Positions 4,081-47,171 of a stretch of 51,634 bases of DNA are shown one piece after another (the stretch's first letter is position 1; each line of letters begins with the position of its first letter). Source of the stretch: a virus. A program made the position numbers and the translations under genes. The notes under the pieces were generated by a model. That model worked only from the letters and a program-made list of their open reading frames with translations. It did not search any database and was not told where the DNA came from. The DNA lies in IMG/VR virus record IMGVR_UViG_3300032249_001329, positions 1-51,634 of that record. The stretch is one strand, 5' to 3'.

Positions 4081-4086
4081 ATTCGC

Positions 4087-4791: not shown

Positions 4792-4809
4792 TTCTTGGGA
4801 TGCAGGCTT

Positions 4810-5487
4810 ATGAAATTGCTCGATTTTGTCGACGCAATTTTTTACATCAATCTGCCGGCGCGCACAGACAAGGCCGCTGCTATGGTGCAGCATCTCGACG
4901 CGCTCGGGCTGCTCTCAAAAACGATTCGCGTACCAGGGCGTACGCCGGCTGAGTTAGGCTTTACGCCAAAAGACGACGGCACCTATGACCACATTGCATA
5001 CAGCGCCGGAAACGCGGCAGCGCATTTAGATGCTGTGCAGCGGGCCTACGACGCCAACATGGAAAACATTTTGGTGCTGGAAGACGACGGCCGTATTTAT
5101 GCAGAAACTGGCCATCCGCTCTGGCCTGTGGAAACGGCGCTAGACCAGCTCGCGCAGATTCCCGATTGGGAGATTTTGTTTTTAGGGGCTACGATTGGCG
5201 ACGAGCGGCTGCAGCTGGTGGCGCCCAATCTCGTCAAAGTCGACGTGACTGTTTGCTCGCACGCGTTCATTATGAATCGCCGGATATTTGCGCCTATTCT
5301 GGGCGAAAAATGGGACAATTCGTACGACTGCTGTCTGTCTAGTTCCTTTCGCCAAAAATACGTCGTGTATCCGTTGGGCGCTATTCAGGTATTTATTAAT
5401 AGCACGGATATTGGCACCGGCCACACGCCCGATGTTTCTTTCTGGGCGGCGCAGCTCGAGCGCCCAATTGACCGGCTTTACGAATAA
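4810..5487 (+). CDS. Glycosyltransferase family 25 protein
   Basis: 225 residues from the ATG at 4810; a TTG 15 bases upstream is possible but gives an unlikely N-terminus. The order of motifs fits GT25 (LPS beta-galactosyltransferase/LgtB-like): FYINLPARTDKAAAM at the N-terminus, ILVLEDDGRIY at about residues 86-96 containing the acidic pair used for donor and metal binding, WEILFLGA, then VCSHAFIMNR. It closes the first glycan cassette; a hairpin follows at 5499-5522. Confidence 0.87.
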   Translation: MKLLDFVDAIFYINLPARTDKAAAMVQHLDALGLLSKTIRVPGRTPAELGFTPKDDGTYDHIAYSAGNAAAHLDAVQRAYDANMENILVLEDDGRIYAETGHPLWPVETALDQLAQIPDWEILFLGATIGDERLQLVAPNLVKVDVTVCSHAFIMNRRIFAPILGEKWDNSYDCCLSSSFRQKYVVYPLGAIQVFINSTDIGTGHTPDVSFWAAQLERPIDRLYE

Positions 5488-8093: not shown

Positions 8094-10683
8094 GCGTAAG
8101 TTTCAAAAGCAGGCCAATCCATTTGGCAGCATGAATTTGTTTTCAGGCGATAGCGTGGCGGGCGGCGCCAAGCCGGCTGCAATTAAATCTGCGCCGGTTA
8201 CTGCGCCGCCAGCGCCGGGCCCAAAGCTCGACTTACAGCCGCAGGGTTGGGGTAACGCACTTCAGCAGGCGCAGACGCAGGCAAATCAGCTGTCATTTAA
8301 AGACTGGCACAAGAATCCAGGAAATCTCCCACCGCCGACATTTAACGCCGCAAATTATCCTAAAGATACGTTAACGCAACGCGCCGTCGGCGGCCTGACC
8401 GGTTATCCAACGACGGAGGCGCAGCAGCACCAACAGGCGGTCAACAACTATTACGGAAGTTTGCGTAGCACTGTGAGTTCGCAAAATCCGTCATGGCTTG
8501 GCCGCATGATGGGTTATGAAAACAATGCGCATCCGCAAGATGTAGAAGAAGCGAGTAAATTTATTCACTCTGTCGCCCCGGACACGGGGGTCGTCAAAGG
8601 TACGCCCGGCGGTATTTTTGGCGGATTTACGCAACCGGGCGCCGGTATGGCCGCCGCGCAGTTTGCGCGTTCGCCGGCTGGGCTGAATATTGCACAACAA
8701 ATTGCGCAGACTGGCAATCGTGTCGTGAACACGCCAAGCGGCGCCACGGCGATTCTTGGCGGAGCCGCAGCCGCGCCGGCTGTCGCGGCGGTTACCGCTG
8801 GTTTGCCGCAAGCTGCTGCGCCGGCTGCGCAGGCCGGATCGGCTGTCGGCCAGTTGGCGCGCGCTGCTGTACCAGTAGCCGGCGTTGTCGGGGGCTCGGC
8901 GGCCCTAAATGCAGCAGGCGTTACAGGCGAAAATATTGCAGATAGCGCCCTGCCCGCTGCTCAGCAACCGGTCGCGACTCAAGACGGAACTCAGGCCGCA
9001 CAAGCACAGGCGCAACAGCCAGCCGGCATTTCGCCGCAAGCTTTTGGCGGCGCTCCTCCGCAGGGTCCGATGGCTGCTGCGACTGCAGGACAGACGCCCT
9101 CGCCGCCGCCAGCCGAAAGCAGGCCGATATTTGATCCGCAGCGGTCACCGTCTGCGCAAATTGCCAAAAACGACCAGGCAGCGAGCCAGCCCGCACCGGC
9201 GTTTGATGCCGAGGCCGCGGCAAAGCAGTATCAGGCGGCCAAAACACCTGAAGAACGTAACGCCGCGATTCAAGGAATGGCCAAGCAGCTGCAGACCGGG
9301 CTTTCGGGTGCCGACGCGACTGGCGCGCAGCACGTAATGGCCGGCGATTTTAATACGCCTGAAGCCAAAACGTTTATTGACAACAAACTTGGGCCAGCGG
9401 GCGACGAATTTTTGAAACAAATGACGGCCGGCAATCCTCAAGATCCAAATTTGTGGGGGCAAGCCGCAGGAATGTGGGAGTCGCTAGGAACAGCCGGGCA
9501 GATTGCTTTTTCAATTGGCGTACCCATGGCATTATTGGGCATGATGGGCGGCAGCGGTATTACAACGCTACTCGGCGCTCTGGGCATTGGCGCGGCTGGT
9601 TTGATGGGCGCGTCTGGCGGCTTATTTGGTCAGGGCGCGCAAGACTCTTTAAACAGCGCTATCGGCGGCCTTGGCAAATCTTTAGCGCCTATGCTGGGCA
9701 TTAATCTGCCGAATGAAACTGATATCAAAACTCGGTTAACTGCAGCGGCGGAGCAAAGCCCCGAACAAGCGCAGGCGGAGCTGGCAAAAGTGCGGGCAGA
9801 AGTAGAACCATACGCCCGTTTTAGTCCCGAGGCGCAAAAATTTTTAACCGACTCGGCCGACCCGAACTACATGTACAACCAAGCAAAAAACTACGCAACC
9901 GAAAATTTTGCGCAGTTAGCCGACGAACGGATGGCAAATCCGGAAGGCCGGACTTGGACGCAATACGCGGGAAAGCTTTTAGGACTTAAAGGCGAAGATG
10001 CAAACAAACCAGGAACATGGAGTTCATATCTTATGGGCGCACCTGACACAACTACACGCGCGCAAAACGTTGAAGAATCGTTAGCACAAAAAGGTTGGAA
10101 ACGTGCCGCGCTGCAGGTCATGCATAAAGCCGCGCGGTGCTGGGCTGGCTATGAACCAGTGCCGGGCAAGAAGCCGTATAGCAACGACTCGTGCCGGCCG
10201 ATTGGCGGCAAAAAGAAAAAGAAGAAGACAGAGAAAAAAGCTGTAGAAGGTTATACTGGCGCGCACAGCAACCGACCGTTCGACGTCGAGCACGCCGCAA
10301 AGATGTTCAAAATGCCGGCAAAAAATCCGCAGCTTGTTTACAACCGGATGATGAACACTTGGAAACAAAATAAATTTTCTCCAGCGCAGTTTTCCGAAAT
10401 GCGCCAAAAATACGACGGCCTGCCGCCTGCGTTTAACACAACCGGGCAGCCTCCCGTGGCGGCGCAGCCTGCTCCAACACCGCCGCAGCAGGCTGTTAAG
10501 CCCGCGGCGCCCACAGCTTCTCCGTCGGCTACGCCTGTGGCGCCGCCGTCGCTCGCAACAGCGCCAAAACCTGCGCCGCAAAATCGGCCCACTATGACGC
10601 AGATGCCGTCGCAAACCGGCCAGACGCCGCCTTCATCCGGCGCAACTGCATACATAAAGAGTGTGCGGGGTGGGGGTCGTTAA
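8059..10683 (+). CDS. Large Pro/Ala/Gln-rich virion protein with hydrophobic core
   Basis: 874 residues from ATG 8059, which has AAGGA about 9 bases upstream and overlaps the cupin gene by 35 bases; the frame is open 75 bases further up. Low-complexity Ala/Gln/Pro segments dominate. Long hydrophobic stretches occur at about residues 205-280 and 480-525 (Gly/Met-rich). Near residue 690 is ARCWAGYEPVPGKKPYSNDS, a short motif I remember from other phage and giant-virus proteins, followed by a run of lysines. The C-terminus is Pro-rich. It looks like an internal head, ejection or tape-measure-like protein, but I cannot assign it. Codon use resembles its neighbours. Confidence 0.72.
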   Translation: MTKKTIATQILERKFQKQANPFGSMNLFSGDSVAGGAKPAAIKSAPVTAPPAPGPKLDLQPQGWGNALQQAQTQANQLSFKDWHKNPGNLPPPTFNAANYPKDTLTQRAVGGLTGYPTTEAQQHQQAVNNYYGSLRSTVSSQNPSWLGRMMGYENNAHPQDVEEASKFIHSVAPDTGVVKGTPGGIFGGFTQPGAGMAAAQFARSPAGLNIAQQIAQTGNRVVNTPSGATAILGGAAAAPAVAAVTAGLPQAAAPAAQAGSAVGQLARAAVPVAGVVGGSAALNAAGVTGENIADSALPAAQQPVATQDGTQAAQAQAQQPAGISPQAFGGAPPQGPMAAATAGQTPSPPPAESRPIFDPQRSPSAQIAKNDQAASQPAPAFDAEAAAKQYQAAKTPEERNAAIQGMAKQLQTGLSGADATGAQHVMAGDFNTPEAKTFIDNKLGPAGDEFLKQMTAGNPQDPNLWGQAAGMWESLGTAGQIAFSIGVPMALLGMMGGSGITTLLGALGIGAAGLMGASGGLFGQGAQDSLNSAIGGLGKSLAPMLGINLPNETDIKTRLTAAAEQSPEQAQAELAKVRAEVEPYARFSPEAQKFLTDSADPNYMYNQAKNYATENFAQLADERMANPEGRTWTQYAGKLLGLKGEDANKPGTWSSYLMGAPDTTTRAQNVEESLAQKGWKRAALQVMHKAARCWAGYEPVPGKKPYSNDSCRPIGGKKKKKKTEKKAVEGYTGAHSNRPFDVEHAAKMFKMPAKNPQLVYNRMMNTWKQNKFSPAQFSEMRQKYDGLPPAFNTTGQPPVAAQPAPTPPQQAVKPAAPTASPSATPVAPPSLATAPKPAPQNRPTMTQMPSQTGQTPPSSGATAYIKSVRGGGR

Positions 10684-10710
10684 TAAATTACCGTGGTTTA
10701 GGAAAAATTT

Positions 10711-11439
10711 ATGCGCAAAAAAAGCAGCAAGCCCAAACGAGAATACAAAGCAGCCCGCCGCGCCCAGCGAAAACGCGTAAAACAGGAAAAACGAGAAAAA
10801 GCGGTTATTGCGGATATTTCGCCCGTCGAGATTAAACCGCGCACAAAAGCGCAGCACAAAGCGCTGCAACTAATCGCCAACAATCATATCTCGTTCTTGC
10901 TCGGTTCCGCTGGCTCTGGCAAGACGTTTTTGGCCATGGCTTATGCTATTAACGAAGTATTGAGTCAGCGCCGTAGCCAGATTGTGCTCACGCGCCCAAT
11001 CGTAGAGGCCGGCGAAAAGCTGGGATTTCTGCCCGGTACGTTTGGCGACAAGGTGAATCCGTATATGCAGCCGCTGTACGACACGATGGATTTATTACTC
11101 GGCAAGCAGAGCCCGCGCCGCGAAATTATTAACAAAGCCGTTGTGCTGGCGCCGCTTTGCTACATGCGCGGCAGAACGTTCCACGACGCGGTCTGTATTT
11201 TTGACGAGGCGCAGAACGCCACCTACGCGCAGCTCAAATTATTTTTGACGCGGTTTGGTGAAAATACGCAAGTTATCGTGACTGGTGATCCGCAGCAGAG
11301 CGACCTAAACGAAAAAACAGTAGCGCTGGTCGAAGTTACCGCACGGTTAAAAGATATCGCCGGAATTGGTATTACAGAATTTGCCGCAAGTGACGTTGTT
11401 CGGCATCCATTGATCAGCAAAATTTTGACGCGTCTGTAA
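10711..11439 (+). CDS. phoH: PhoH-like P-loop ATPase
   Basis: 242 residues. A Lys/Arg-rich N-terminus (1-45) precedes the PhoH domain: FLLGSAGSGKTFLAMA (Walker A, residues 65-72), IVLTRPIVEAGEKLGFLPG, YMRGRTFHDAVCIFDEAQNA (Walker B DEAQ at 165-168) and IVTGDPQQSDL. These are the hallmark motifs of PhoH/RhaX-type RNA-linked ATPases, common in large phages, where the role is unsettled (RNA or nucleotide metabolism, phosphate stress). It follows the giant virion-type gene by 27 bases. Confidence 0.93.
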   Translation: MRKKSSKPKREYKAARRAQRKRVKQEKREKAVIADISPVEIKPRTKAQHKALQLIANNHISFLLGSAGSGKTFLAMAYAINEVLSQRRSQIVLTRPIVEAGEKLGFLPGTFGDKVNPYMQPLYDTMDLLLGKQSPRREIINKAVVLAPLCYMRGRTFHDAVCIFDEAQNATYAQLKLFLTRFGENTQVIVTGDPQQSDLNEKTVALVEVTARLKDIAGIGITEFAASDVVRHPLISKILTRL

Positions 11440-11446
11440 ATCTGTA

Positions 11447-11475
11447 TTGCCAGATATTTTGACCGCTATTACACT
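11447..11475 (+). promoter_or_regulatory. sigma70-like promoter (TTGCCA-17-TACACT)
   Basis: TTGCCA at 11447-11452, a 17-base spacer and TACACT at 11470-11475, about 30 bases before the ferritin-like start. The spacing is ideal and it lies in non-coding DNA. Confidence 0.6.
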
Positions 11476-11504
11476 GAGCGCTTGTCTCGTACTCAGAGGT
11501 CAAG

Positions 11505-11942
11505 ATGTTAAAGCCGTTGTCTGAAATGGTCGCGCTGTTAAATAACGACCTAAAAAACGAGTGGAAGCACCTAAAGTTCTATTTGTATCACGCCAGCGCC
11601 ATTACTGGGTTTCACGCGCACGAGTACAAAGAGTTCTTACTCGAGCAGGCCGCCAGCGAACTAAACCACGTTAGCCAGTTCTGCGATTTGATTATTGGCT
11701 TGGGCGGTATTCCCACGAACGACAGCAATTATTTTCCGCTGCTGACGCATCCGCAACACATTATTGACTACGCCTGCAAGATGGAGGCGGAAGTCGTAGA
11801 AAACTACACGCACCGCATTGCGTCGTTGGCCGGGTTTACGCCGAGCGCCGACACTAAATGGATCGAGATTTTTCTAGAAAAACAAATTGAAGACAGCCGT
11901 ACAGATCTAGACCATCTGCGGCAGATTTTGAAAGGAGCCTAA
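11505..11942 (+). CDS. Ferritin-like diiron protein
   Basis: 145 residues, predicted all-helical. Ligand pattern: an early E in NEWKHLKFYLYH, then EQAASELNHVSQF (E and ExxH in helix 2), ACKMEAEVVENY in helix 3, and LEKQIEDSRTDLDHL in helix 4. This is the four-helix bundle arrangement of bacterioferritin/Dps-like and rubrerythrin-like proteins. Likely role: iron storage or ferroxidase protection of DNA from oxidative damage during infection; a small-molecule oxidase role is possible. It has its own promoter, and its downstream region is an unexplained structured sequence ending in a terminator. Confidence 0.75.
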   Translation: MLKPLSEMVALLNNDLKNEWKHLKFYLYHASAITGFHAHEYKEFLLEQAASELNHVSQFCDLIIGLGGIPTNDSNYFPLLTHPQHIIDYACKMEAEVVENYTHRIASLAGFTPSADTKWIEIFLEKQIEDSRTDLDHLRQILKGA

Positions 11943-11949
11943 TCTGCAG

Positions 11950-12180
11950 GAGAGGCGCGGAGATGGCGCACGACGCGACACTGATTTCTCGTCTCGGTGG
12001 CGCGATTAGCTGGTCTCTGCGGTGCGCGTTCGTAACCCGAAATGCGCATGCACGGCTTCGGACAAGCCGCCGTGCCGGACGTTGGTTGCTGGGTTCTAAC
12101 GGTGTCCGACCGCCCCTTTCGCCCCCACGTAATACGAGCACAAGCGGGATACGAGCGGTCCTGCTGCCAACGTCCAGCCT
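11950..12180 (+). ncRNA. Candidate structured RNA, class unknown
   Basis: About 230 GC-rich bases between the ferritin-like gene and a terminator, with no convincing reading frame. Visible helices: TGCGC/GCGCA plus TTCG/CGAA (12023-12048); GCACGG/CCGTGC with a nested GCTT/AAGC (12050-12075); a perfect 9-bp long-range pair GGACGTTGG/CCAACGTCC (12077-12085 with 12167-12175) enclosing GACCGC/GCGGTC (12108-12113 with 12155-12160). The density of complementary stems is unlike the coding DNA around it. I do not recognise a family. It could be a trans-acting RNA, a 3' UTR element of the ferritin-like gene, or the remains of an intron. Confidence 0.5.
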
Positions 12181-12187
12181 GCTTTCA

Positions 12188-12222
12188 TTTTGTAAGAAAA
12201 AAAGCGCGTTTTTCTTACAAAA
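12188..12222 (+). terminator. 14-bp inverted repeat, (bidirectional) terminator
   Basis: TTTTGTAAGAAAAA (12188-12201) pairs perfectly with TTTTTCTTACAAAA (12209-12222) around a 7-base loop. A- and T-runs on the arms allow termination on either strand. It ends the ferritin/structured-RNA unit. Confidence 0.8.
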
Positions 12223-12228
12223 CGTGCC

Positions 12229-12258
12229 TTGCCGTATTTACCGATTTTTAGTTATGCT
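12229..12258 (+). promoter_or_regulatory. sigma70-like promoter (TTGCCG-18-TATGCT)
   Basis: TTGCCG at 12229-12234 and TATGCT at 12253-12258, 18 bases apart, directly after the terminator and 34 bases before the next start, which has an ACAAGGAG ribosome site. Confidence 0.6.
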
Positions 12259-12291
12259 ACCGTTAGTCTTTTTACAAGGAGTTTATCTGAA

Positions 12292-12627
12292 ATGCCAATG
12301 GATTATATCTCGAGCCTGACGACGCTTTTTGGCGCCGACGCGACGATTACTGGTACCGGGACGGACGCCGTGTTGTCGTTCAAACCATCGCAAACCGGCG
12401 TTGATAGTAATTTTGGAACGCCGCAGACAGCCCGCCCCGAAGCTATTGTGCTGGCGCTGCTGCAGAAGGTTTTTGCGGCGCAGGGCGTGACGGCAAATCG
12501 CGCTATGGAAGTGACAAAGACGTCGGTACTAACCACAAAAGACAACGCCCAGGTCAGCGGCGAACAGTACATAATTCGCATCTTCTCGGCGTCGGCGCTT
12601 TCCGGGCTGGACCCCGACACGCTTTAA
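12292..12627 (+). CDS. Small phage protein of unknown function
   Basis: 111 residues from ATG 12292, chosen for the ACAAGGAG site upstream; the frame is open to 12229 but that part overlaps the promoter. The sequence is Thr/Ala-rich, with a helix PEAIVLALLQKVFAAQG and a beta-rich C-terminus (SGEQYIIRIFSASALSG). Small proteins of this shape occur beside virion genes in marine phages. No motif. It precedes the UDP-galactopyranose mutase gene by 3 bases and so shares its transcript. Confidence 0.65.
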   Translation: MPMDYISSLTTLFGADATITGTGTDAVLSFKPSQTGVDSNFGTPQTARPEAIVLALLQKVFAAQGVTANRAMEVTKTSVLTTKDNAQVSGEQYIIRIFSASALSGLDPDTL

Positions 12628-12630
12628 AAC

Positions 12631-13728
12631 ATGTACGACTATTTGGTCGTCGGCGCTGGATTATTTGGCGCCGTATTCACCGAGCAAGCAACGTCTCGCG
12701 GTAAAAAGGTCTTAGTGATAGACCGCCGCGAGCACATTGCCGGCAATTGCTATACAGAGCAGCGGCACGGCGTTGAGGCGCACGTCTACGGCCCGCACAT
12801 CTTTCACACCAACAGTGAAAAGCTCTGGAACTACGTCAGGCAGTTTGGCGAGTTTAATAATTTTGTAAATCGTCCCAAAGTAAAGTACGGCGACAAGCTG
12901 TACTCGTTTCCAATTAATCTGTTTACGCTGTATCAGATTTGGGGCGTACAGACTCCGGAAGAAGCGCGGCGCAAACTGGAAGAAGCGCGCGTTAAAATCG
13001 AGAACCCCGCCAATCTTGAGGAGTGGGCGCTCTCTCAAATAGGCCCAGAGCTGTATTACACGTTTATTCACGGCTATACGACCAAGCAGTGGGGGCGAGA
13101 CCCGAAAGAGTTGCCCCATGGGATAATAAAGCGGCTTCCTATACGGCTCACGTTTGATGACAACTACTTTTACGACAAGTACCAAGGTATTCCCGTTAAC
13201 GGTTATACGGCGCTAATCAGTAATATGCTGGCAGGCGCAGACGTCATGCTTAATCATGACTACCTGGCCAAGCGCGACAGTTTTGACGCTATGGCTACGC
13301 AGGTTGTATTTACCGGCTGTCTCGACGAGTTCTATGAGTACAAGTTTGGCCGGTTAGACTACCGCACATTGCGCTTTGAGTCCGCGCAAATACTCACGCC
13401 TGATTTTCAAGGCAACGCAATTGTGAACTATACGGAAGCCGGCGTGCCGTATACGCGCATCGTCGAGCACAAGCACTTTACGGGCGCGCAGCTAGATCAC
13501 ACGTACATTACGCGCGAGTATCCGACCGCGTGGCATGAAACCGCTACGCCGTACTATCCGATTGCGGATGCGCTAAATACAGCAAGATACTCACAGTATG
13601 CAGAGCTAGCCAAAGCAGATAAAAAATATCTGTTCGGCGGCCGGCTAGCAGAGTATAAGTATTACGACATGCATCAAGTGATTGGAAGCGCACTTGCCGC
13701 AGCAGAACGCCGCCTGGAGCCGACATGA
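12631..13728 (+). CDS. glf: UDP-galactopyranose mutase
   Basis: 365 residues, full family length. The N-terminal FAD dinucleotide-binding motif is DYLVVGAGLFGAVFTEQA (GxGxxG), followed by IDRREHIAGNCYTE and YGPHIFHTNSEKLWNYV, both diagnostic of Glf. Further family segments are YSFPINLFTLYQIWG and YTTKQWGRDPKELP. The flavoenzyme converts UDP-galactopyranose to UDP-galactofuranose, donor for Galf-containing glycans. It begins the second glycan cassette and overlaps the next gene by 4 bases (ATGA), implying that Galf or a related sugar feeds the fused transferases that follow. Confidence 0.95.
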   Translation: MYDYLVVGAGLFGAVFTEQATSRGKKVLVIDRREHIAGNCYTEQRHGVEAHVYGPHIFHTNSEKLWNYVRQFGEFNNFVNRPKVKYGDKLYSFPINLFTLYQIWGVQTPEEARRKLEEARVKIENPANLEEWALSQIGPELYYTFIHGYTTKQWGRDPKELPHGIIKRLPIRLTFDDNYFYDKYQGIPVNGYTALISNMLAGADVMLNHDYLAKRDSFDAMATQVVFTGCLDEFYEYKFGRLDYRTLRFESAQILTPDFQGNAIVNYTEAGVPYTRIVEHKHFTGAQLDHTYITREYPTAWHETATPYYPIADALNTARYSQYAELAKADKKYLFGGRLAEYKYYDMHQVIGSALAAAERRLEPT

Positions 13729-15167
13729 TGCAGTCTGTAGAACAAATTCGCGAAGCTATTTTGGCCGGCGGACTGTATGACGACGGCCGCCCTGTATACG
13801 CAGAAAAATATCGGCCGTATTTTTCTGCTACGGGTTTATGGCAGCAGCCCGACGAACTGGCCGAGCTTTTACACTATTTGCAGCAGCAGCATATTCGGTC
13901 TTTTTTGAACATTGGCACGTTTAACGGGCGCACGTTCAAATTTATTGCCGATTTCCTGACCGCGCAAAATCCTAATCTTGTTTGCGTGACTGTGGATATC
14001 GAGCAGCACCCGACGCTGGTGCCGGCCCCCGAGTACAGGTACGTTATTGGCACGTCTGAAAATTTTGCACACCAGCGTTTTGACCTCGTGTTTATCGACG
14101 GCGCCCACGAATACGCTGCCGCCATGCGCGACTTTACCCTGGTGGGGCAATATGCAAAATTTTGTGTATTTCATGATATTGCCGACCAATGGATTAGTGA
14201 ACTTCCCGGCGGCGGTTGCACGGCTGTTTGGAAAGAGTTAAAACAACAGTGCGCTAAAACGCACGATATTCACGAATTTGTTACAGCCGATAAACCCACG
14301 CAAACAATGGGACTTGGCGTCCTGGCCAAAAAACCGCTCATGCGCCGAATTATTGTCACGCCCGCCGGTCGACAACCGTATCTGCAGCTGTTGTATCAGC
14401 ATTTAGCAAGCCAAAAAGACGCCTTTGACGAGTGGCACCTGTGGCTAAATACCAGCCATGAGCCAGATATAAACTTTTGCCGCAGTCTTGCTGACAAACA
14501 CAACTGGATCAAAACAACCGAGCCGCGCTTGCCGCCAAATAGCAACGCAACGATCTATTCGTTTTTCGTCGATTACGTGGATCCAAATTGCGCGTACTTG
14601 CGGCTTGATGACGACGTTATCTGGCTGGCGCCCGGCTTTGTCGACGATATGTTTACGTATCGAATTGCGCACCCGGAATATTTTTTAGTGTACGCCAATA
14701 TTGTGAACAACTCTGTGGTGTCGCACGTGTATCAACGAGCTGGGGCCATCCCCGCGCCAGTGCTCGAAGATAAGACAGACGCGGTGGCGTATGGCGTGTG
14801 TGACGCAGTTGGCTGGGCATCTCCCGCATTTGCGCACAAGTTGCACTCAATGTTTTTGGCGTCTTTGAAAACGCATCAAGGCGTGGACACGTGGCGGTGC
14901 TTCAAAGCGTGGGTGCTGTACTACGCAGAGCGCGTGTCCATTAACGCAATCTCGTGGCTGGGCTCTGAGTTTGCCAAATTTAATGGCGAAGTCGGGGTAG
15001 ACGAAGAGACGTGGTTGTCTTGTCACTATCCGGCAACAAATAACATGCACAACATCATTATAGGCCGCCCAGTGTGCGTGCATTTTTCGTTCTATCCGCA
15101 GCGGGGCATAGAACTTCAGCACGACGAGTTGTTGGCTGAATACGCGAAGTTAGCGCCTTTTGATTGA
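13725..15167 (+). CDS. Fusion: class I methyltransferase + GT-A-type glycosyltransferase
   Basis: 480 residues; ATG 13725 (ATGA overlap) or 13728. Residues about 60-200 form a Methyltransferase_24-like SAM domain: SFLNIGTFNGRTFKF (motif I), VTVDIEQHP, LVFIDGAHEYAAAMRDF (about 121-137) and CVFHDI. Residues about 208-470 form a GT-A-like domain: IIVTPAGRQPYLQLLYQHL at its start, then YLRLDDDVIWLAPGFVDDM with D295-D297 as the metal/nucleotide-sugar motif, and a late CHYPATNN/HFSFYPQ segment. One polypeptide would add and methylate a sugar. It lies between glf and a three-domain GT. Confidence 0.78.
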   Translation: MMQSVEQIREAILAGGLYDDGRPVYAEKYRPYFSATGLWQQPDELAELLHYLQQQHIRSFLNIGTFNGRTFKFIADFLTAQNPNLVCVTVDIEQHPTLVPAPEYRYVIGTSENFAHQRFDLVFIDGAHEYAAAMRDFTLVGQYAKFCVFHDIADQWISELPGGGCTAVWKELKQQCAKTHDIHEFVTADKPTQTMGLGVLAKKPLMRRIIVTPAGRQPYLQLLYQHLASQKDAFDEWHLWLNTSHEPDINFCRSLADKHNWIKTTEPRLPPNSNATIYSFFVDYVDPNCAYLRLDDDVIWLAPGFVDDMFTYRIAHPEYFLVYANIVNNSVVSHVYQRAGAIPAPVLEDKTDAVAYGVCDAVGWASPAFAHKLHSMFLASLKTHQGVDTWRCFKAWVLYYAERVSINAISWLGSEFAKFNGEVGVDEETWLSCHYPATNNMHNIIIGRPVCVHFSFYPQRGIELQHDELLAEYAKLAPFD

Positions 15168-15196
15168 AAATTATTGCGCAACAACGGAGCTAAAGT

Positions 15197-17341
15197 ATGT
15201 CACAAAATCACCCCGACGTATTTTTTGGTACGCTGCAGCCGCCGCCAATAAGCGATAAAAATTCTGCGCAGTATGTTAAAGCGGCCGTCGAGCTGTCAAA
15301 ACTTTATACGCCGCCAGCAGATTTAAGCGGGCGCGGTATCGTTATTTGTGGTGGCGGTCGTTATCTGCCGTCTGTATATGTTAGCGTTCGTTTGTTGCGC
15401 GAGCTTGGGTGTGCGTTGCCTATACAAATATGGCACTTGGGCGATAGTGAGGTGCCGGAAAATGCCGCCGCTCTTTTTTTGCATTTGAACGTAGAATTTA
15501 AAGATGCGCGCAAATTAGTAAACAAATTTAGTCACAAACGGCTTGGCGGCTGGGAGTTAAAAGCGTTTGCGTTGTTGCACTGTCCATGGCGCGAAGTACT
15601 ACTGCTTGACGCGGATAATCTTGCGTTAAAAAATCCAACATGTCTATTCGACGACGAGCTATACAAAGAGCACGGTGCATTATTTTGGCCCGACAGGGGG
15701 CGCTGGCCCGCGGACTCAAAAATTTGGGAGTTAACCGGGATTGCATATCGCGATGAGGCGGAATTTGAGAGCGGTCAAATTGCAGTAGACCGCGCGCGCT
15801 GTTGGTCTGCGCTTACGCTATCTAACTGGTTTAATGTCGAAAGCGCATACTGGTATTCAAAAATTCACGGCGATAAAGACACATTTAGATTAGCGTGGCG
15901 AGCGCTTTCACAAGAATACGGCATGATTCCGCATATGGGCTCTGCGCCGTGGCCTTATTTTTATCAGAAGGACGCAGCCGGCGCGATTTTGTTTCATCAC
16001 GGTTTAAAATGGGACACAATAGCCGCAAATAATGCGCGATTAGAGCACGTGCCGGCTGTCTGCTACAGCTATATCGAAGATTACATTCTGGCGCTCACCG
16101 ACGCGGCCGCGCAGTATGGACCCAAACCAAAACAAAACGTTGAATTACCAATAGAAACAGGCGCAGCTGCGCACGTAGCCGTTGACCCGTGCCATGTTGA
16201 CCATATTTACGGCGTTGCGCGCGCACTTAAACCGGCGCAAGTGTTAGAATTTGGGCTCGGGACCGGCGCCACCGCTAACGCTATTCTTCGTGCGTTGCGT
16301 GAAAATAATCGCGGGCAGCTCACACTAGTCGACAACTGGCACGATTTTGGAGGCCAGCAGCCGGATACGCCAACACTTCGACAAAACCGGCTCAATGTGG
16401 TGGCCGCTGCCGAAGGTTTGTTTGTTAAAAATGCCGCGCCAGTTTATGACATGATAATTTCTGATGCGGATCATTACGGGTCGCATACTTGGTGGGAAGA
16501 TACGCTTCGCCTTGTTCGCCCTGGCGGTTGCGTTTTTTATCATGACGTTACGTTTTCTGGTGCGCCTAATCTGCGAACAATATATGACGAAAGCCGTCAA
16601 AAATATGCCGTGCAATTGTTTAACGCATCAACAACGTCGGATGAGCGGTGCGAGCGGGGGTTGTTGTGCGTATGGCGACCAGAGACTGACGTAGTTCGTC
16701 CGCGCGTCGCTGTATTGCAATACGGTTCAGGTTCGGCACTTGAGCTGCTCAAGTACTCCCGACCTTGCCACGAAAACGCGTGCGCGCGATTTGGCTATGA
16801 CTACATTTTTGAAGGCGAGCCAAAATCTAATAGGCATCCAGTTTGGGAGAAGCCGCGCATGTTTCGCGAAACGCTTGCGGCCGGCTACGATTATGTAATC
16901 TGGCTTGACGCAGATTCGTTTTGGCTTGGCGCGTGTGATCTTTTAACGCCGTGGGCCTCCGCCGCGCCAGCGGCTGTATTAGCCGGTACGTGGCACTCGG
17001 CAAGACCTGGCGCTGGGCACTACTACAATCATTTGAATATTGGCGTACTTTTTGCAAGACAAGGAAACGGCCGCGCGGTGGAACTTTGCGATCGCTGGAT
17101 AGCCATGCCGGACAATATGCACCCCTGGCGCGAGCAGCACTCACTGCACGAACTGCTGGCCGCGGAGCCAGATTTGGTTCATTTTATTGATCATGCTTGG
17201 AACAGCGTGGAGTGGGTACCCGAATACTGCGCGCAAAATCCTGTCGTAGTTTCATGGCACGGAAATCCGATAGCGGCTAGCGCGCGTATTAAACAGTTAA
17301 GCGAAGAGTATAGCCGGCGCTACGATATTTCTATTGGTTAA
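15197..17341 (+). CDS. Three-domain fusion: Mnn1-like GT + methyltransferase + GMA12/Mnn10-like GT
   Basis: 714 residues. Domain 1 (about 45-300): GRGIVICGGGRYLPSVYVSV, GWELKAFALLHCPWREVL and LLLDADNLALKNP (D138-A-D140), the pattern of Mnn1/GT71-like mannosyltransferases. Domain 2 (about 330-490): VLEFGLGTGATANAILRAL, MIISDADHYGSHTWWED, RPGGCVFYHDV, a Methyltransferase_24-type SAM domain. Domain 3 (about 505-710): VAVLQYGSG, CARFGYDYIFEGEP, YVIWLDADSFWLG (D571-A-D573), YYNHLNIGVLFAR and REQHSLHELL, the pattern of GT34 (GMA12/Mnn10) galactosyl/mannosyltransferases. No membrane anchor. It presumably builds a methylated disaccharide in one chain. Confidence 0.82.
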   Translation: MSQNHPDVFFGTLQPPPISDKNSAQYVKAAVELSKLYTPPADLSGRGIVICGGGRYLPSVYVSVRLLRELGCALPIQIWHLGDSEVPENAAALFLHLNVEFKDARKLVNKFSHKRLGGWELKAFALLHCPWREVLLLDADNLALKNPTCLFDDELYKEHGALFWPDRGRWPADSKIWELTGIAYRDEAEFESGQIAVDRARCWSALTLSNWFNVESAYWYSKIHGDKDTFRLAWRALSQEYGMIPHMGSAPWPYFYQKDAAGAILFHHGLKWDTIAANNARLEHVPAVCYSYIEDYILALTDAAAQYGPKPKQNVELPIETGAAAHVAVDPCHVDHIYGVARALKPAQVLEFGLGTGATANAILRALRENNRGQLTLVDNWHDFGGQQPDTPTLRQNRLNVVAAAEGLFVKNAAPVYDMIISDADHYGSHTWWEDTLRLVRPGGCVFYHDVTFSGAPNLRTIYDESRQKYAVQLFNASTTSDERCERGLLCVWRPETDVVRPRVAVLQYGSGSALELLKYSRPCHENACARFGYDYIFEGEPKSNRHPVWEKPRMFRETLAAGYDYVIWLDADSFWLGACDLLTPWASAAPAAVLAGTWHSARPGAGHYYNHLNIGVLFARQGNGRAVELCDRWIAMPDNMHPWREQHSLHELLAAEPDLVHFIDHAWNSVEWVPEYCAQNPVVVSWHGNPIAASARIKQLSEEYSRRYDISIG

Positions 17342-17412: not shown

Positions 17413-18393
17413 ATGCACACACGTAAACTCATCCTCAGTAATCACCAAAGCCCGGGCGATCTGGTAATGTTGCTTTACGCAATTACCAGCCTGCACGAAA
17501 CATATCCGGGCGAGTATCTCACAGACGTGCGGGTGTCTGTGCCGGCTATTTTTCATCACAATCCGCTGATCACAAAAATAGACGACGCAGACGCCGAGGC
17601 CACGCGGATTGAAATGGAATATCCGCAGATCCACTCAAGCAATGCCAAACCTTACCGATTTACTACAGCCTTTACAGATTTCCTATCCGATAAGCTCCGC
17701 AGACCAATTAAACCGACGAATTTTTCTGGCGTGTTACCTATTGCCGAAGAAGAAAAAACCTGGTATTCAGGCGTGCACGAGAAACTTGGGCGCGATGTTC
17801 CATATTGGGTTTTAAACGCTGGACACAAATACGACTTCACAGCAAAGACGTGGTCGTTCAAGCGGTATCAAGAACTTGTGGAGGCGTGCCCAGATGTCTG
17901 TTTTGTGCAGATCGGATCTAAAGAACACAATCACCCAGAACTATACGGCGACAATTTAATTCGCATGGTTGGCGAGACGGACGCGCGACAGCTTATTCGT
18001 TTGGTCTACAACTCATTTGGCGTAATTAGCCCGGTGAGTCTCGCTGCGCACTTATCGTACGCTGTGCCGGCGCATCCAAGATTTAACCGCGCAAGTAGGG
18101 CAAGTATTGTGCTAGCTGGTGGGCGTGAAGGCGCGCACTGGGAGCAGGGCCCGAACCAGCAGTTTTTACACACATGCGGAATGCTGTCGTGCTGTTCTGG
18201 GGGCGGGTGCTGGAAAAGCCGCGTCGTGCCAATCAGTGACGGTGATAGCAAAGATAACGAGCTTTGCGTAGCGCCTGTGATGATGGAAGACGGGCAGTGG
18301 ATCGCCAGCTGCATGTCCATGATCGAAGTTGACGACGTAGCGCGCATCGTTCGGCGTTACATGCGCAATCTGGACTACGAGCCTAAAAACTGA
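17413..18393 (+). CDS. Heptosyltransferase-like glycosyltransferase (GT9-like)
   Basis: 326 residues. The N-terminus SNHQSPGDLVMLLYAITSLHETYPGEYLTDVRVSV resembles the G-D-x3-L...L...P start of ADP-heptose:LPS heptosyltransferases. PYWVLNAGHKYDFTAKTWSFKRYQELV and VCFVQIGSKEHNHPE correspond to the C-terminal donor domain, and GVISPVSLAAHLSYAVP to the donor-loop region. It also holds a Cys cluster (CGMLSCCSGGGC, about residues 256-267), unusual for GT9. The substrate is unknown; a core-LPS-like or virion glycan is plausible. It has its own promoter candidate. Confidence 0.75.
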   Translation: MHTRKLILSNHQSPGDLVMLLYAITSLHETYPGEYLTDVRVSVPAIFHHNPLITKIDDADAEATRIEMEYPQIHSSNAKPYRFTTAFTDFLSDKLRRPIKPTNFSGVLPIAEEEKTWYSGVHEKLGRDVPYWVLNAGHKYDFTAKTWSFKRYQELVEACPDVCFVQIGSKEHNHPELYGDNLIRMVGETDARQLIRLVYNSFGVISPVSLAAHLSYAVPAHPRFNRASRASIVLAGGREGAHWEQGPNQQFLHTCGMLSCCSGGGCWKSRVVPISDGDSKDNELCVAPVMMEDGQWIASCMSMIEVDDVARIVRRYMRNLDYEPKN

Positions 18394-18428
18394 CCACGTA
18401 CCGCTGTGAAAGCAGGGCTGTTTTCGCA

Positions 18429-18887
18429 ATGACGCCGCGCCGCAATACCGCTATTGCGCTGGACTTTGACCGAACGTTCACCAGCGATATTGAGTTCTGG
18501 CGGTTGTTTGTGCGCTGCGCCGTCATGCGCGGGCATCGTGTGTTTTGCGTCACGGGCCGCACAGAGTCGCCTAAAAACTGGCTCGAGCTGGCTGAGCTGT
18601 TTGGCCCGACTGTGTTTAAGCTTCTGAGTGATTGCGTGTTCTGCAACCATTCTTCAAAACGCGCGCGAATGCAAAGCCTGGGCTATAAGATCGACATTTG
18701 GATTGATGACATGCCGGAAGGCATCGGCACAGCAGTCGATAGCAGCGCGTTTAAAAAACTTGAAGACCAGTTCGACGTCTGCGAAACGTTGCCTATTTTT
18801 ACAAAACGCGCTGTAAATCCGGCGGCTATTTGGCGGCCAGCCAGCAAAGAGTTATTTACGGATCCGCCACCGTCTAGTTTAAACTAG
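18429..18887 (+). CDS. HAD-superfamily hydrolase (small phosphatase)
   Basis: 152 residues. Motif I is ALDFDRTFTSD (nucleophile D12, acid/base D14), followed by a VFCVTGR segment (motif II T/S) and IDIWIDDMPEG (motif IV, D93-D94). No cap domain is visible, so it is a short C0-type HAD resembling phage polynucleotide 3'-phosphatase-like or nucleotidase proteins. Substrate unassigned: a sugar phosphate would fit the cassette upstream, a nucleotide would fit general phage metabolism. Confidence 0.8.
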   Translation: MTPRRNTAIALDFDRTFTSDIEFWRLFVRCAVMRGHRVFCVTGRTESPKNWLELAELFGPTVFKLLSDCVFCNHSSKRARMQSLGYKIDIWIDDMPEGIGTAVDSSAFKKLEDQFDVCETLPIFTKRAVNPAAIWRPASKELFTDPPPSSLN

Positions 18888-18939
18888 ATTTTGCACGCTA
18901 AAAAGCCCGTGCGCCCGCCACACCGAATGGATTTGGTGT

Positions 18940-19635
18940 ATGCAAAAACGCTGGCATTATCTGTATGTAATTGTGTACCCGGCGCTCGGGTATAAGTTCT
19001 ATTATGGCTCACGAATAACCGATCGCATTCCAGATGACGACGTCTCGTATTTTGGGTCGTCGGTGACTTTTGCGCACTACAACGATCCGGCAAATACAGA
19101 GTACCAGGCAGACGCGTTAAAGATAATCTTGTGGGCGCGCCACTGGACGCATAACAAGAGAAACACAAACGCGTTAAACCGCAAAGAAGCAGAACTTATT
19201 CGCAGCGCCCTGTACGACAATGAACACCTCGGTCCTGACATCTGCTTGAATAGAAATCACGGAAAGCAGATTTTTATGACGCCCGAAGAGCGCCAAGCAG
19301 CTCTTGCGCGGTCAATCGCAGGCGGTGGCGGCTTTTTAAACATGTCGGCAGCAAAACTCAAAAAGTTTGCGGCAAAAGGCGGCGCCACCGCGCGAGAATT
19401 AGGCGTCGGTATTTACGCGCTGTCTGAGGCGCAGTTGCGGGCAGCTCGTGCGCGCGGGAACGCTGTAATTGCTGAAAAATATGCTAAAACGTACGAGCTC
19501 TTGAATCCGCAAAACAAGAAGATCAAATTTAAAAACATGCGCGCTTTTTGCCGCGAACACAATCTTGCGCCCGGGCATTTGCGCCGCGTACACTCTGGAA
19601 AATTGAAATCTTACAAAGGCTGGCGAAAACCATGA
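18940..19635 (+). CDS. Free-standing GIY-YIG-type homing endonuclease
   Basis: 231 residues. N-terminus: YLYVIVYPALGYKFYYGSR...DDVSYFGSS, the degenerate GIY-YIG pattern found in phage endonucleases (Y..YYG.. with YxGS), then an E in NRKEAELIRSAL that may be the metal-binding glutamate. The middle (about 105-170) resembles NUMOD3-like sequence, and the C-terminus NMRAFCREHNLAPGHLRRV...YKGWRKP is a NUMOD1/helix-turn-helix DNA-reading motif. No intron is evident around it, so it is a mobile, selfish gene between the HAD and small membrane-protein genes. Its stop overlaps the next start (ATGA). Confidence 0.75.
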   Translation: MQKRWHYLYVIVYPALGYKFYYGSRITDRIPDDDVSYFGSSVTFAHYNDPANTEYQADALKIILWARHWTHNKRNTNALNRKEAELIRSALYDNEHLGPDICLNRNHGKQIFMTPEERQAALARSIAGGGGFLNMSAAKLKKFAAKGGATARELGVGIYALSEAQLRAARARGNAVIAEKYAKTYELLNPQNKKIKFKNMRAFCREHNLAPGHLRRVHSGKLKSYKGWRKP

Positions 19636-19958
19636 GTATGCTCAATCAATTGTCACTTATTTTTGGTGTGTTGCTTTTTGGCGTCGTCGCTGGCTATATC
19701 GCCGGGCGGGTTGATCTCATAATTTGCAAATTAGCGCAAAGTCCTGGCAGCTCCGGCGGCTTTAATTTCAACCGCAAAACAGACAGCAGCGGTAAAGTTA
19801 AAACAGAGGTAGCCATCGACGACAGTAAATTCGTCACTGCGATCGATACCGCCGGATTTTCCAAGACATCTGAGACTGCTCTTGGCAAAGTAACCGAAAA
19901 ATCCGATGATATCCAGGCTTCTGTTTCAAGGCTCGCGCAGTTGAAAGGAAAAGCATGA
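19632..19958 (+). CDS. Small single-pass membrane protein
   Basis: 108 residues from ATG 19632, overlapping the endonuclease stop. The N-terminal hydrophobic helix is LSLIFGVLLFGVVAGYIAG (residues about 6-24), followed by a soluble Ser/Thr/Lys-rich tail of about 80 residues. No family recognised. Its end overlaps the next small gene by 4 bases (ATGA), so the two are translationally coupled. Confidence 0.65.
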   Translation: MSMLNQLSLIFGVLLFGVVAGYIAGRVDLIICKLAQSPGSSGGFNFNRKTDSSGKVKTEVAIDDSKFVTAIDTAGFSKTSETALGKVTEKSDDIQASVSRLAQLKGKA

Positions 19959-20098
19959 CCGCGCCGTTATTGGCTGTTGTGAGTATAATTTACGCTTATG
20001 TGTCCCTTGATCAGTGCTTTAAGGGCAACGGCGCCATGGCGGTGTTGTGGATGAGTTATGCCTGCGCCAACTGCGCGCTTATGTTTGGAAATAAATAG
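19955..20098 (+). CDS. Tiny two-helix membrane protein
   Basis: 47 residues, ATGA-coupled to the preceding gene. Hydrophobic segments at residues 4-18 (PLLAVVSIIYAYVSL) and 28-45 (MAVLWMSYACANCALMF) are separated by DQCFKGNGA. This DQ...KGN loop between two helices is a pattern I remember in many short phage membrane proteins of unknown function. A TATAAT within it (19984-19989) is probably chance. Confidence 0.7.
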   Translation: MTAPLLAVVSIIYAYVSLDQCFKGNGAMAVLWMSYACANCALMFGNK

Positions 20099-20107
20099 GA
20101 GATAATC

Positions 20108-21109
20108 ATGCCCAAAGGCTTAGACGTCGGTACTTCGTTTATCGTGCTGGCAAAAGACACCGCGGACGGAAATGTCGTATACAAAGACTTTCGCGACGCG
20201 TTTTACGCCATCAAGCCGACTACGCCCGTCGCGACCAAAATGATTGAGAAGGGCCTGGCCGATAAGGTATTCGTAAAAGACGAGGACAATACGTTTATTC
20301 TGCTTGGCCAGGACGCCATTGAAAAAGCAGTTGAGCGTAATGATTCGGCAAAGCGGCCGATGTACCGCGGCGTCGTATCGCCCAAAGAAAAAGACGCCAA
20401 ACGTATTCTGGCGTACATTCTTAAAGAAGTAGTTGGCAAAGGGCTGCCCGGCGAAAAAATTGTATTCTGCGTGCCTGCCCAGCCGGTCGACCAGCCCGAC
20501 GACGACTTTGACGTCGGTTATCACGAGGACGTTGTGAAGGCGATTTTAGCTGAGCGTAACTACGACGCTCGCGCAATTCACGAGGCCGAGGCGCTGTGCT
20601 ATTCAGAATTTGAAAACGACGACTACACCGGTATTGGCTTGTCATTTGGTGCCGGCATGGTAAACGTCTGCATCATGCTCAATGGCGAGCCGACGGTGCA
20701 ATTTTCCACGACGCGCTCTGGCGACTGGGTTGACCGGATGTCGGCGGTGGCAACATCCGAGCCAGACTCGGTAGTTCAAGCCGAAAAGGAACACGGCAAA
20801 TTTGTCATTGGCGAACCCAACGACAATCCCATTCTGGCCGCTGTGGCCGCGTATTACGATCGCTTGATTGACTACACCACAAAACAGCTCACCGCGGCGC
20901 TTACAGGCCACAAAGCGCTACCCAAGTTTAAAAACCCAATTCCAGTTGCAATCGCCGGCGGGACATCCAAGGCCGCTGGTTTCGTAGATATGTTCGCCAA
21001 AAAATTGCAAGAAAATGAATTCCCGCTCGTTGTCAAAGAAGTAAGGCACGCCAAGGATCCGCTTCACGCAGTTGCGCGCGGATGTTTAATTGCCGCTAAG
21101 ATTCTTTAA
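20108..21109 (+). CDS. Actin-like (ParM/MreB-type) ATPase
   Basis: 333 residues. Phosphate-1 loop GLDVGTSFIVLAK (residues 4-16); IVFCVPAQP in the connecting region; phosphate-2 region IGLSFGAGMVNVCIM (about 176-190), where the usual first Asp is Ser; adenosine motif PVAIAGGTSKAAGFVDMF (about 279-296). Length and order match ParM/Alp-type actin homologues. Such proteins form filaments that move plasmids or position phage DNA. No gene for a DNA-binding adaptor (ParR-like) is seen beside it; a structured RNA gene follows instead. The preceding small membrane genes may share the transcript. Confidence 0.85.
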   Translation: MPKGLDVGTSFIVLAKDTADGNVVYKDFRDAFYAIKPTTPVATKMIEKGLADKVFVKDEDNTFILLGQDAIEKAVERNDSAKRPMYRGVVSPKEKDAKRILAYILKEVVGKGLPGEKIVFCVPAQPVDQPDDDFDVGYHEDVVKAILAERNYDARAIHEAEALCYSEFENDDYTGIGLSFGAGMVNVCIMLNGEPTVQFSTTRSGDWVDRMSAVATSEPDSVVQAEKEHGKFVIGEPNDNPILAAVAAYYDRLIDYTTKQLTAALTGHKALPKFKNPIPVAIAGGTSKAAGFVDMFAKKLQENEFPLVVKEVRHAKDPLHAVARGCLIAAKIL

Positions 21110-21139
21110 TGTTGCGCAGTTCGTAAACTACTTGCACAC

Positions 21140-21148
21140 TGATAAAAT
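21140..21148 (+). promoter_or_regulatory. Extended -10 promoter of the structured RNA
   Basis: TGATAAAAT is an extended -10 element (TGn + TAAAAT, 21143-21148). A start 7-8 bases downstream falls at about 21155-21156, exactly at the first base of the RNA's closing helix. The same core TGATAAAAT recurs at 26411-26419. Confidence 0.65.
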
Positions 21149-21153
21149 ATGAG

Positions 21154-21376
21154 TTGTCGTAAGTTAGTCGTGGTGGCCGGCTGGTTAGGGAAGCAGGGCG
21201 CCGAGCAGGGATGTGACGCGTCCTGACAGGAAACCGTGGTCAGGTTAAAGCCGCGTTCACGGTAGGTGGAGCAATGAATGCCGCACGAGGTTGAGTTTAC
21301 GCCTTAGAAAGTCATTGCGTAGCCCCGGTTTGCCGGGGTCCGGGCCTGTGGAGGGGATCACAGGAGCTTACGACAA
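21154..21376 (+). ncRNA. Highly structured non-coding RNA, about 220 nt; possibly HEARO/omega-RNA-like
   Basis: A perfect 10-bp closing helix (TTGTCGTAAG 21154-21163 with CTTACGACAA 21367-21376) encloses at least five more: GTGACGCG with CGCGTTCAC (21213-21220/21252-21260, one bulge), inside it CCTGAC/GTCAGG (21222-21227/21239-21244); GCAATGA/TCATTGC (21271-21277/21312-21318); CCCCGG/CCGGGG (21323-21338); CCTGTG/CACAGG (21345-21350/21359-21364). No reading frame is credible. It has its own extended -10 promoter. Segments such as GGTTAGGGAAGCAGG and GGTAGGTGGAGC remind me of HEARO RNAs (the omega RNAs of IscB), but no IscB gene is in the window and the promoter leaves no room for a 5' guide. 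Family assignment is therefore tentative; structure is firm. Confidence 0.8.
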
Positions 21377-21403
21377 ATTTCATGTAACTTATTAGGTGGC
21401 AAC

Positions 21404-21763
21404 ATGCTTGACGAATATTTGCATTCGTTATCTGTGTTTGCCAGCGCTTTTGGCGTGTCGGCTTTTGCCGGCCTCGCTACCTTTTTACGGTTTGCCAAAA
21501 AACTCTCTCAAATAGGTGCAATTAGCGCAATGCTTAACGCCGGGTTTCTCGGCCTGGCAATCGCGCTTACCTGGTATCAAAACTACTTAAAATCTGAAAA
21601 TGTGTACGGTCTGCTGGGAATTTGCGTTTTAGCCGGCATGGGTGGTTCTACACTGACCGATTTGTTAATATCGTTGTTGTCGGGAGCAGGCATTAAAGTC
21701 ACTATAACCCACGAGCGAGACCGCGATGGAGGCGACGAGCATGACAGAACCGATGCGGAGTAA
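21404..21763 (+). CDS. Holin-like membrane protein (LydA-type)
   Basis: 119 residues with an AGGTGG ribosome site. Hydrophobic helices at about residues 7-28, 38-57 and 66-92 (NVYGLLGICVLAGMGGSTLTDLL), followed by a very charged tail (HERDRDGGDEHDRTD). Three helices plus a charged tail, and the G-L-G-G-S...D-L-L pattern in the last helix, fit class I holins of the LydA/phage_holin family, which form the membrane hole at lysis. The matrixin-like gene at 25610 could supply the wall-degrading partner. A small membrane ORF overlaps its end by 23 bases. Confidence 0.7.
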   Translation: MLDEYLHSLSVFASAFGVSAFAGLATFLRFAKKLSQIGAISAMLNAGFLGLAIALTWYQNYLKSENVYGLLGICVLAGMGGSTLTDLLISLLSGAGIKVTITHERDRDGGDEHDRTDAE

Positions 21764-21890
21764 ACTCAGCGTTGCGGCCTTGTTTGGCTTTTTGATTTGC
21801 GGTTTTTTGCTGCTGGTTTCCGGCTTTGCCGCCGCAAATCACGCAGCGCACGCCGCCGCGGCTCAGGAAACAAGCACAGCGCGTCAGTGA
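21741..21890 (+). CDS. Small membrane or secreted protein, possible lysis accessory
   Basis: 49 residues in another frame overlapping the holin-like gene end. A basic start (MTEPMRSKLS) is followed by a hydrophobic helix AALFGFLICGFLLLVSGFAAA and an Ala/His tail. This could be a signal-anchored protein; position after a holin suggests a spanin-like or antiholin role, but there is no lipobox at a processing site and no proof of function. Confidence 0.5.
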   Translation: MTEPMRSKLSVAALFGFLICGFLLLVSGFAAANHAAHAAAAQETSTARQ

Positions 21891-21896
21891 CTTTAT

Positions 21897-21968
21897 TGCT
21901 TGATAGCTCAACGGTAGAGCAGCCGGCTGTTAACCGGCAGGTTCTAGGTTCGAATCCTAGTCAAGCAG
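21897..21968 (+). tRNA. tRNA-Asn (GTT)
   Basis: A full cloverleaf: acceptor TGCTTGA/TCAAGCA, D-arm GCTC-aacggta-GAGC, anticodon arm GCCGG-CTGTTAA-CCGGC with anticodon GTT, T-arm CTAGG-TTCGAAT-CCTAG, discriminator G. No CCA is encoded, so the host must add it. Asn AAC/AAT codons are common in the virion genes here, which may explain why it is kept. Confidence 0.96.
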
Positions 21969-21982
21969 TTTGAGGGTTGCCC

Positions 21983-47153: not shown

Positions 47154-47171
47154 TAATTAGAGGGCGAAACA

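Follow-up and report, generated by a model that had tools for sequence, protein, structure and literature searches.

A predicted GT71-like/methyltransferase/GT-A fusion protein at a hypervariable glycan locus of jumbo-type phages

Introduction

Phage-encoded glycans are known, but to our knowledge few have been solved. A proven viral polypeptide with two glycosyltransferases (GTs) and one methyltransferase (MT) is A064R of the chlorovirus PBCV-1, which finishes the capsid glycan and whose mutants are antigenic variants (PMC9614988). PBCV-1 A111/114R is also a three-domain viral glycan enzyme, although it has three GTs and no methyltransferase (PMC7826918). In Klebsiella, single O-antigen proteins (O7 ORF6 and O12) combine a methyltransferase with two GT modules (PMC11231755). 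Large aquatic phages carry GT genes in variable islands, as exemplified by the hypervariable host-recognition island of pelagimyophages, a 44-kb region with tail fibers that is reported to diverge gradually (PMC7029224). Both a viral GT+GT+MT polypeptide (PBCV-1) and GT-rich variable islands in aquatic phages are therefore already known.

Here, we analyzed a 51.6-kb fragment (51,634 nucleotides, referred to as the window) of the IMG/VR virus record IMGVR_UViG_3300032249_001329, which encodes a 714-aa protein with two predicted GTs and one predicted methyltransferase. In this composition, the protein resembles A064R, but A064R comes from an algal virus, is 638 aa long, lacks a GT71 domain, and has the order GT-GT-MT rather than GT-MT-GT. 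From the domain order, the window protein would work like A064R without being its ortholog. The changes described for A064R are mutations and deletions, whereas the window lineage possesses a slot with exchanged fusions. The Klebsiella proteins differ in being bacterial and in carrying a methyltransferase-kinase chain terminator with a coiled-coil, and the GT modules of ORF6(O7) belong to GT2. In contrast to the pelagimyophage island, a single slot with one fused protein is cleanly replaced here. As far as the literature searched shows, no bacteriophage protein with the order GT71-MT-GT has been described before, nor has a slot of one gene that is occupied by shuffled fusions of GTs and methyltransferases.

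Results

A single open frame encodes three enzyme domains

The 714-aa protein is encoded by a single open frame (ATG 15197, stop 17341) in which a GT71-like domain (residues 1 to 320), a SAM methyltransferase (321 to 497), and a GT-A glycosyltransferase (498 to 714) follow one another (Table 1). Full-length orthologs of 708 and 709 aa, with 55% identity, are present in two independent contigs (L375 and L380, respectively), and both a chance ORF and an assembly chimera were therefore rejected as the origin of the fusion. A first-pass annotation, made from the sequence alone, had described one polypeptide with a methyltransferase between two GTs and domain borders at 1-320, 321-500, and 501-714. 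Pfam matches, motifs, and the two orthologs bear out this architecture, and the borders are right to within a few residues. The characteristic motifs are intact in all three domains (DADN, EFGLGTG, and a second DAD). The hydropathy of the protein reaches a maximum of 1.2 over 19 residues, and no membrane segment was found.

The relatives of the protein were recovered by degenerate motif scans. An NCBIfam search gave no match, tblastn against 50,697 phage records gave no relative, a plasmid search matched the methyltransferase part only, and peptide-pattern scans built from the 714-aa protein alone found nothing. Among 57 sampled multidomain PF11051 proteins, the partner domains were GT9 (18), FkbM methyltransferase (8), GT2 (4), GT4 (4), Anp1 (3), GT34 (2), and others; Methyltransf_24 was the partner in the window protein only. 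A module of approximately 95 residues, designated X, is often located C-terminal to the GT71 domain, and a GT71 domain is present in 80/87 X-bearing proteins. Module X, for which no Pfam name was seen, occurs in L032, L097, L112, L295, L387, and others. The position of X is taken by the methyltransferase in the window protein and in both of its orthologs (L375 and L380). Other combinations of related domains were also observed. A bacterial 1317-aa open frame (G002:C41:39049-41544) contains two GT71-like domains and one GT34-like domain, and a 527-kb phage record (G010; L125, L289) carries a GT71-GT4 fusion.

Domain 1 is GT71-like and domain 2 is a predicted methyltransferase

Domain 1 matches PF11051 (Mannosyl_trans3) with an E value of 8e-34 (117.7 bits against a cut-off of 22), covering residues 45 to 173 and a second stretch. 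The DADN motif lies at residues 138 to 141 (15608-15619), and the other motifs are ESGQ (191 to 194), GDK (225 to 227), H268, and K271. Eight residues (D138, D140, N141, E191, G225, D226, H268, and K271) are conserved in 34/34 tabulated relatives, and all are present in the window. A 73-sequence profile retrieved the yeast alpha-1,3-mannosyltransferase MNT2 (7xjv; hmmsearch E value of 2e-11), which was also the best Foldseek match (E value of 9e-14) of the AlphaFold (AF2) model (pLDDT 90). Judged by profile and model, domain 1 is a GT71-like GT-A enzyme, in agreement with the Mnn1-like, DAD-bearing domain proposed at first.

The yeast MNT2/MNN1 family (GT71, PF11051) has family, fold, and DxD motif in common with domain 1, but its members are single-domain Golgi membrane enzymes with 15 to 16% identity to it. 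To collect relatives of domain 1, sequences were scanned with a degenerate nucleotide pattern encoding DADNxxxx[DN]Pxx[LF]F; of the GT71-like ORFs strongly similar to domain 1 that this one scan returned, 104 were viral and 95 came from bacterial contigs. By this count, the family is common in bacteria and phages and not specifically eukaryotic, and the original emphasis on eukaryotic Golgi enzymes was misleading. GT71-like domains were found in only 3/289 genomes of the phylum of genome G003. Viruses and bacteria are intermixed in the domain 1 tree, where the window sequence occupies a long, unplaced branch, so no donor can be named.

Domain 2 matches PF13578 (Methyltransf_24) at residues 350 to 451 (E value of 7.6e-10; 40.1 bits against a cut-off of 26.3) and PF01596, also above the cut-off (E value of 1.4e-5). 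Its SAM loop, EFGLGTG, spans residues 351 to 357 (16247-16267), and its sequence matches in the PDB are the O-methyltransferases 8c9v (1.8e-5), 3tr6, and 5lhm. These matches agree with the SAM-binding methyltransferase anticipated at first.

Domain 3 is predicted to have a GT34-like fold

Domains 1 and 2 exceed their Pfam cut-offs, whereas residues 497 to 714, searched alone, matched PF03407 (Nucleotid_trans) with an E value of 6.5e-4 and 20.2 bits, below the cut-off of 22. The same family scored 23.7 bits, above the cut-off, in the ortholog L380. PF05637 (GMA12/MNN10) did not match domain 3 even at an E value of 10. In L232, a GT71-GT34 protein of bacterial origin, the homologous domain matches PF05637 (E value of 7e-28), and phmmer linked domain 3 to this GT34 (GMA12-like) domain with an E value of 2.5e-5. 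A 14-sequence profile that includes L232 retrieved from the PDB the xyloglucan xylosyltransferases (GT34; 1.8e-8) and PBCV-1 A064R-D1 (0.0016); a profile from the three orthologs alone gave no domain 3 match in the PDB.

The motifs of domain 3 are DAD (571 to 573; 16907-16915), NIGV (614 to 617), EQH (646 to 648), and WHG (687 to 689). Both Asp residues of the DxD, the N and G of NxGV, QH, and WHG are invariant across the window and its orthologs. Predicted structures cover domains 1 and 3, each modeled separately because a joint three-domain alignment misplaced the methyltransferase rows. The AF2 model of domain 3 (pLDDT 75, pTM 0.76, with one long loop below 50) has A064R-D1 (2p73) as its best solved match in Foldseek (E value of 6.8e-7; TM 0.65/0.70). 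The model points to a GT34-like GT-A fold with a DxD motif, and the family assignment by sequence is weak. Of the GMA12/Mnn10-like domain claimed by the first-pass annotation, the DAD motif and a GT34-like GT-A fold stood; PF05637 was absent, and GT34 was reached only by the broad profile and the fold. The two GTs had also been called unrelated. This is too strong, since a profile-profile comparison of domains 1 and 3 gave a probability of 81% (E value of 1.3e-5); both are GT-A and distantly related, so they are better described as different families of one fold. Neither the GT71-type nor the GT34-type fold fixes the sugar that is transferred.

Neighboring genes may belong to one glycan pathway

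Upstream of the 714-aa protein are genes for a UDP-galactopyranose mutase, which would supply UDP-galactofuranose, and for a fusion of a methyltransferase and a GT. Paralogy of the methyltransferase domains encoded by the genes at 13725 and 15197 was rejected, as they have no direct BLAST similarity. Phage record G010 also encodes a UDP-galactopyranose mutase, which shares 47% identity with the one in the window. Downstream is a conserved GT9-like gene with 63 to 78% identity in slot relatives. A GT9-like gene adjoins the GT71 protein gene in phages L068 and L032, and GT9-like and GT71-like domains are fused in 30 bacterial-contig ORFs, with the GT9-like domain N-terminal in 29/30. This adjacency in phages and fusion in bacterial contigs tie the two proteins to one pathway. 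The small protein encoded at 18429 is HAD-like on a reading of its motif, and its gene is kept beside the GT9-like gene. In phage L039, GT9, MT, GT71, and a GT-A + MT24 fusion are found in one close gene run, which by sequence comprises the same parts as the window locus in another arrangement.

Several other features of the window were observed. A second glycan cluster (1646-5487) encodes a PF11397 GlcNAc-transferase-like GT, a GT-B-like protein, and an FkbM methyltransferase; we take PF11397 to be the family typed by a polypeptide GlcNAc-transferase. A tail/lectin-like protein is followed by sulfotransferase, radical SAM, and GT92/GT2-like genes (45480-50088), and a matrixin-type metalloprotease with a peptidoglycan-binding domain is encoded at 25610-26413.

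Table 1. Positions of features in the window and proteins occupying the slot in related phages
Feature	Position	Strand	Basis or carriers
UDP-galactopyranose mutase (GLF)	12631..13728	+	PF03275 2.4e-76
Methyltransferase + glycosyltransferase fusion	13725..15167	+	PF13578 6.8e-7; phrog_4447 glycosyltransferase 2.3e-8
Segment replaced relative to L373	14360..17424	.	Identity lost ~14360-14452, regained 17425
Shine-Dalgarno GGAG	15186..15189	+	7 nt 5′ of ATG 15197, read from sequence
GT71-like/methyltransferase/GT-A protein, 714 aa	15197..17341	+	Pfam; full-length orthologs L375, L380
Domain 1, aa 1-320, GT71-like glycosyltransferase (predicted)	15197..16156	+	PF11051, MNT2 profile, AF2/Foldseek
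Domain 2, aa 321-497, SAM-dependent O-methyltransferase of class I, Methyltransf_24 type (predicted)	16157..16687	+	Pfam, PDB matches
Domain 3, aa 498-714, GT-A glycosyltransferase, A064R-D1/GT34-like (predicted)	16688..17338	+	PF03407, phmmer, AF2/Foldseek
Conserved GT9-like glycosyltransferase, anchor of slot	17413..18393	+	43% identity to L039 ORF with PF01075 match
HAD-like small protein (motif reading)	18429..18887	+	PHROG 4919/4256 (no function annotated); 64.6% identity in L068
Slot allele GT71-MT24-GT-A			Window, L375, L380
Slot allele GT71-X-GT34-like			L387
Slot allele GT71-X-FkbM			L295
Slot allele MT24-MT-GT71			L301, L382 (L301 by 85% identity to L382)
Slot allele MT-GT9-MT			L374
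Slot allele GT9-FkbM			L377
Slot allele GT9-MT24			L384, L393 (L393 by 51% identity to L384)
Slot allele DUF3431-GT9-MT24			L389
Slot allele, N-terminal half without named family + MT24			L388, L391
Slot allele without Pfam match			L373, L386

The slot 5′ of the GT9-like gene is hypervariable

The phage belongs to a large lineage of jumbo-type phages that encode both volactin and RNA polymerase. In total, a volactin search identified 392 related viral stretches, and a GT9-like search identified 28 loci. Phage G007 (107 kb), which contains L032, is collinear with the window across the compared region, with identities of 71% (RNA polymerase), 76% (volactin), 66% (PhoH), and 63% (GT9-like). Its L032 protein is 42% identical to the window protein in the GT71 part, with no BLAST match beyond, and in G007 nothing equivalent to the mutase and MT-GT genes of the window lies between the genes that match.

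In the window, RNA polymerase beta and the N-terminal part of beta-prime are encoded in one 1482-aa ORF (31217-35665), with the C-terminal part of beta-prime encoded separately (36620-38497); the closest named phage record is Salmonella phage Arash (32%). In L290 (G007:C1:53175-58583), the beta/beta-prime ORF is 1802 aa long and has ~300 extra in-frame residues near query 430-470, possibly an intein. The volactin-like actin (20108-21109; PF25216, 1.5e-65) belongs to a family named from haloarchaea and is found here in a bacteriophage-like lineage. A homing-endonuclease-like gene (18940-19635; PHROG HNH/homing endonuclease) lies between the glycan genes and volactin and is present in 20/49 relatives with enough upstream sequence.

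Directly 5′ of the GT9-like gene, one large protein is encoded in each phage examined, except that a 282-aa gene lies between the slot gene and the GT9-like gene in L375. The locus is hypervariable: the same slot is occupied by many GT/methyltransferase fusions (Table 1). L295 and L387 are 62% identical across 392 residues and then have different C-terminal domains.

The closest comparison is with IMGVR_UViG_3300032316_001265 (L373/L293), which is 97.4% identical to the window over 9108-14452 and 99.0% identical over 17425-23000. Between these flanks, the DNA of the two phages is unalignable, and a 465-aa gene in L373 stands in place of the 714-aa gene. On its left, the replaced segment begins within the GT-encoding half of the MT-GT gene, and on its right it ends 12 bases past the start of the GT9-like gene. 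This is a clean replacement with sharp edges, observed in one pair of metagenomic contigs, one of which is possibly chimeric there. By eye, module X seemed to recur in the tail of the slot protein of L373, but a profile search did not bear this out.

The fusion or the cassette swap could be an artifact of assembly, given that every contig is metagenomic and that the window and L373 form a single pair. L375 and L380, however, have the same architecture at the same position, and many contigs carry distinct slot proteins at that position with intact frames on both sides, which makes an artifact highly improbable. We read the locus as an exchangeable glycan-decoration cassette in a fixed slot anchored by the GT9-like gene.

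Discussion

The 714-aa protein is best read as a trifunctional enzyme that acts at the end of a glycan and represents one allele at an exchangeable slot, to which we assign a probability of about 0.58. Of the assembly-line synthesis of a defined, methylated glycan suggested by the first-pass annotation, a multi-step, methylated-glycan enzyme is supported by the domains, the motifs, and the A064R precedent, whereas the idea of one defined glycan has the hypervariability of the locus against it; we infer the catalytic activity, the order of steps, and the sugars from sequence, models, and analogy. The product would be a soluble or cytosolic enzyme without a hydrophobic segment. One sugar would be attached by domain 1 in a metal-dependent reaction of the GT71 type and another by domain 3 in a reaction of the GT34/A064R type, with one of the two O-methylated by domain 2. 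The enzyme would work together with the GT9-like enzyme, the upstream MT-GT fusion, and UDP-galactofuranose derived from the mutase to build the variable, outermost part of a glycan encoded by the phage. Because related phages carry different GT/methyltransferase combinations in the slot, its exchange by recombination would change the structure of the glycan end.

The two GTs could instead polymerize a repeating disaccharide, with the methyltransferase capping the chain as in Klebsiella O12/O7, where one protein can unite a methyltransferase with two GT modules (PMC11231755). The Klebsiella proteins, however, rely on a methyltransferase-kinase together with a ruler formed by a coiled-coil, whereas no kinase was found in the window protein and no coiled-coil was seen on inspection of its sequence. 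The slot alleles with one GT and two methyltransferases (L382) also suit end decoration better, and a polymerase is unlikely.

For the glycan-end enzyme, the virion's own glycoproteins are the most likely target, at a little under an even chance by analogy. The virion is preferred because A064R acts in this way and because variation among near-identical phages suits an exposed structure, although none of the virion proteins encoded in the 51.6-kb fragment could be linked to the glycan. Alternatively, the enzyme may act during infection on the LPS O-chain or the capsule at the surface of the host cell and block superinfection, with the virion not the target. Published work has read phage GT clusters in this way, both for jumbo phages (PMC7824862) and for pelagimyophages, whose GTs lie in a hypervariable island (PMC7029224). 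LPS synthesis typically involves GT9 and GT4-type GTs, and bacterial relatives include GT9-GT71 fusions. However, no priming GT, flippase, or polymerase was found among the window genes scanned, the 714-aa protein is without a membrane segment, and a PF11397 GT is encoded in the same phage; a host-surface role is plausible but somewhat doubtful. Phage GTs can also build glycans on DNA (Pyle 2024, as cited in PMC12619734), and the glycan could be placed on hypermodified phage DNA; no base-hypermodification gene was found among the scanned genes of the 51.6-kb window, and such a target is very unlikely.

Tentatively, and with the odds slightly against it, the slot may be a dedicated glycan-type locus, in which whole GT/methyltransferase fusions are recombined into the GT9-anchored site so that near-identical phages bear chemically different glycans. 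If true, phages would have an equivalent of the serotype loci of bacteria or of the antigenic classes of PBCV-1. The 714-aa protein itself broadens the A064R precedent from algal viruses to bacteriophages, and the fused GT/methyltransferase enzymes may provide ready-made tools for glycan synthesis. The exchange of such predicted enzymes in one slot of near-identical genomes makes it directly testable, in an abundant aquatic jumbo-phage lineage, whether phage surface glycans vary in a serotype-like manner.
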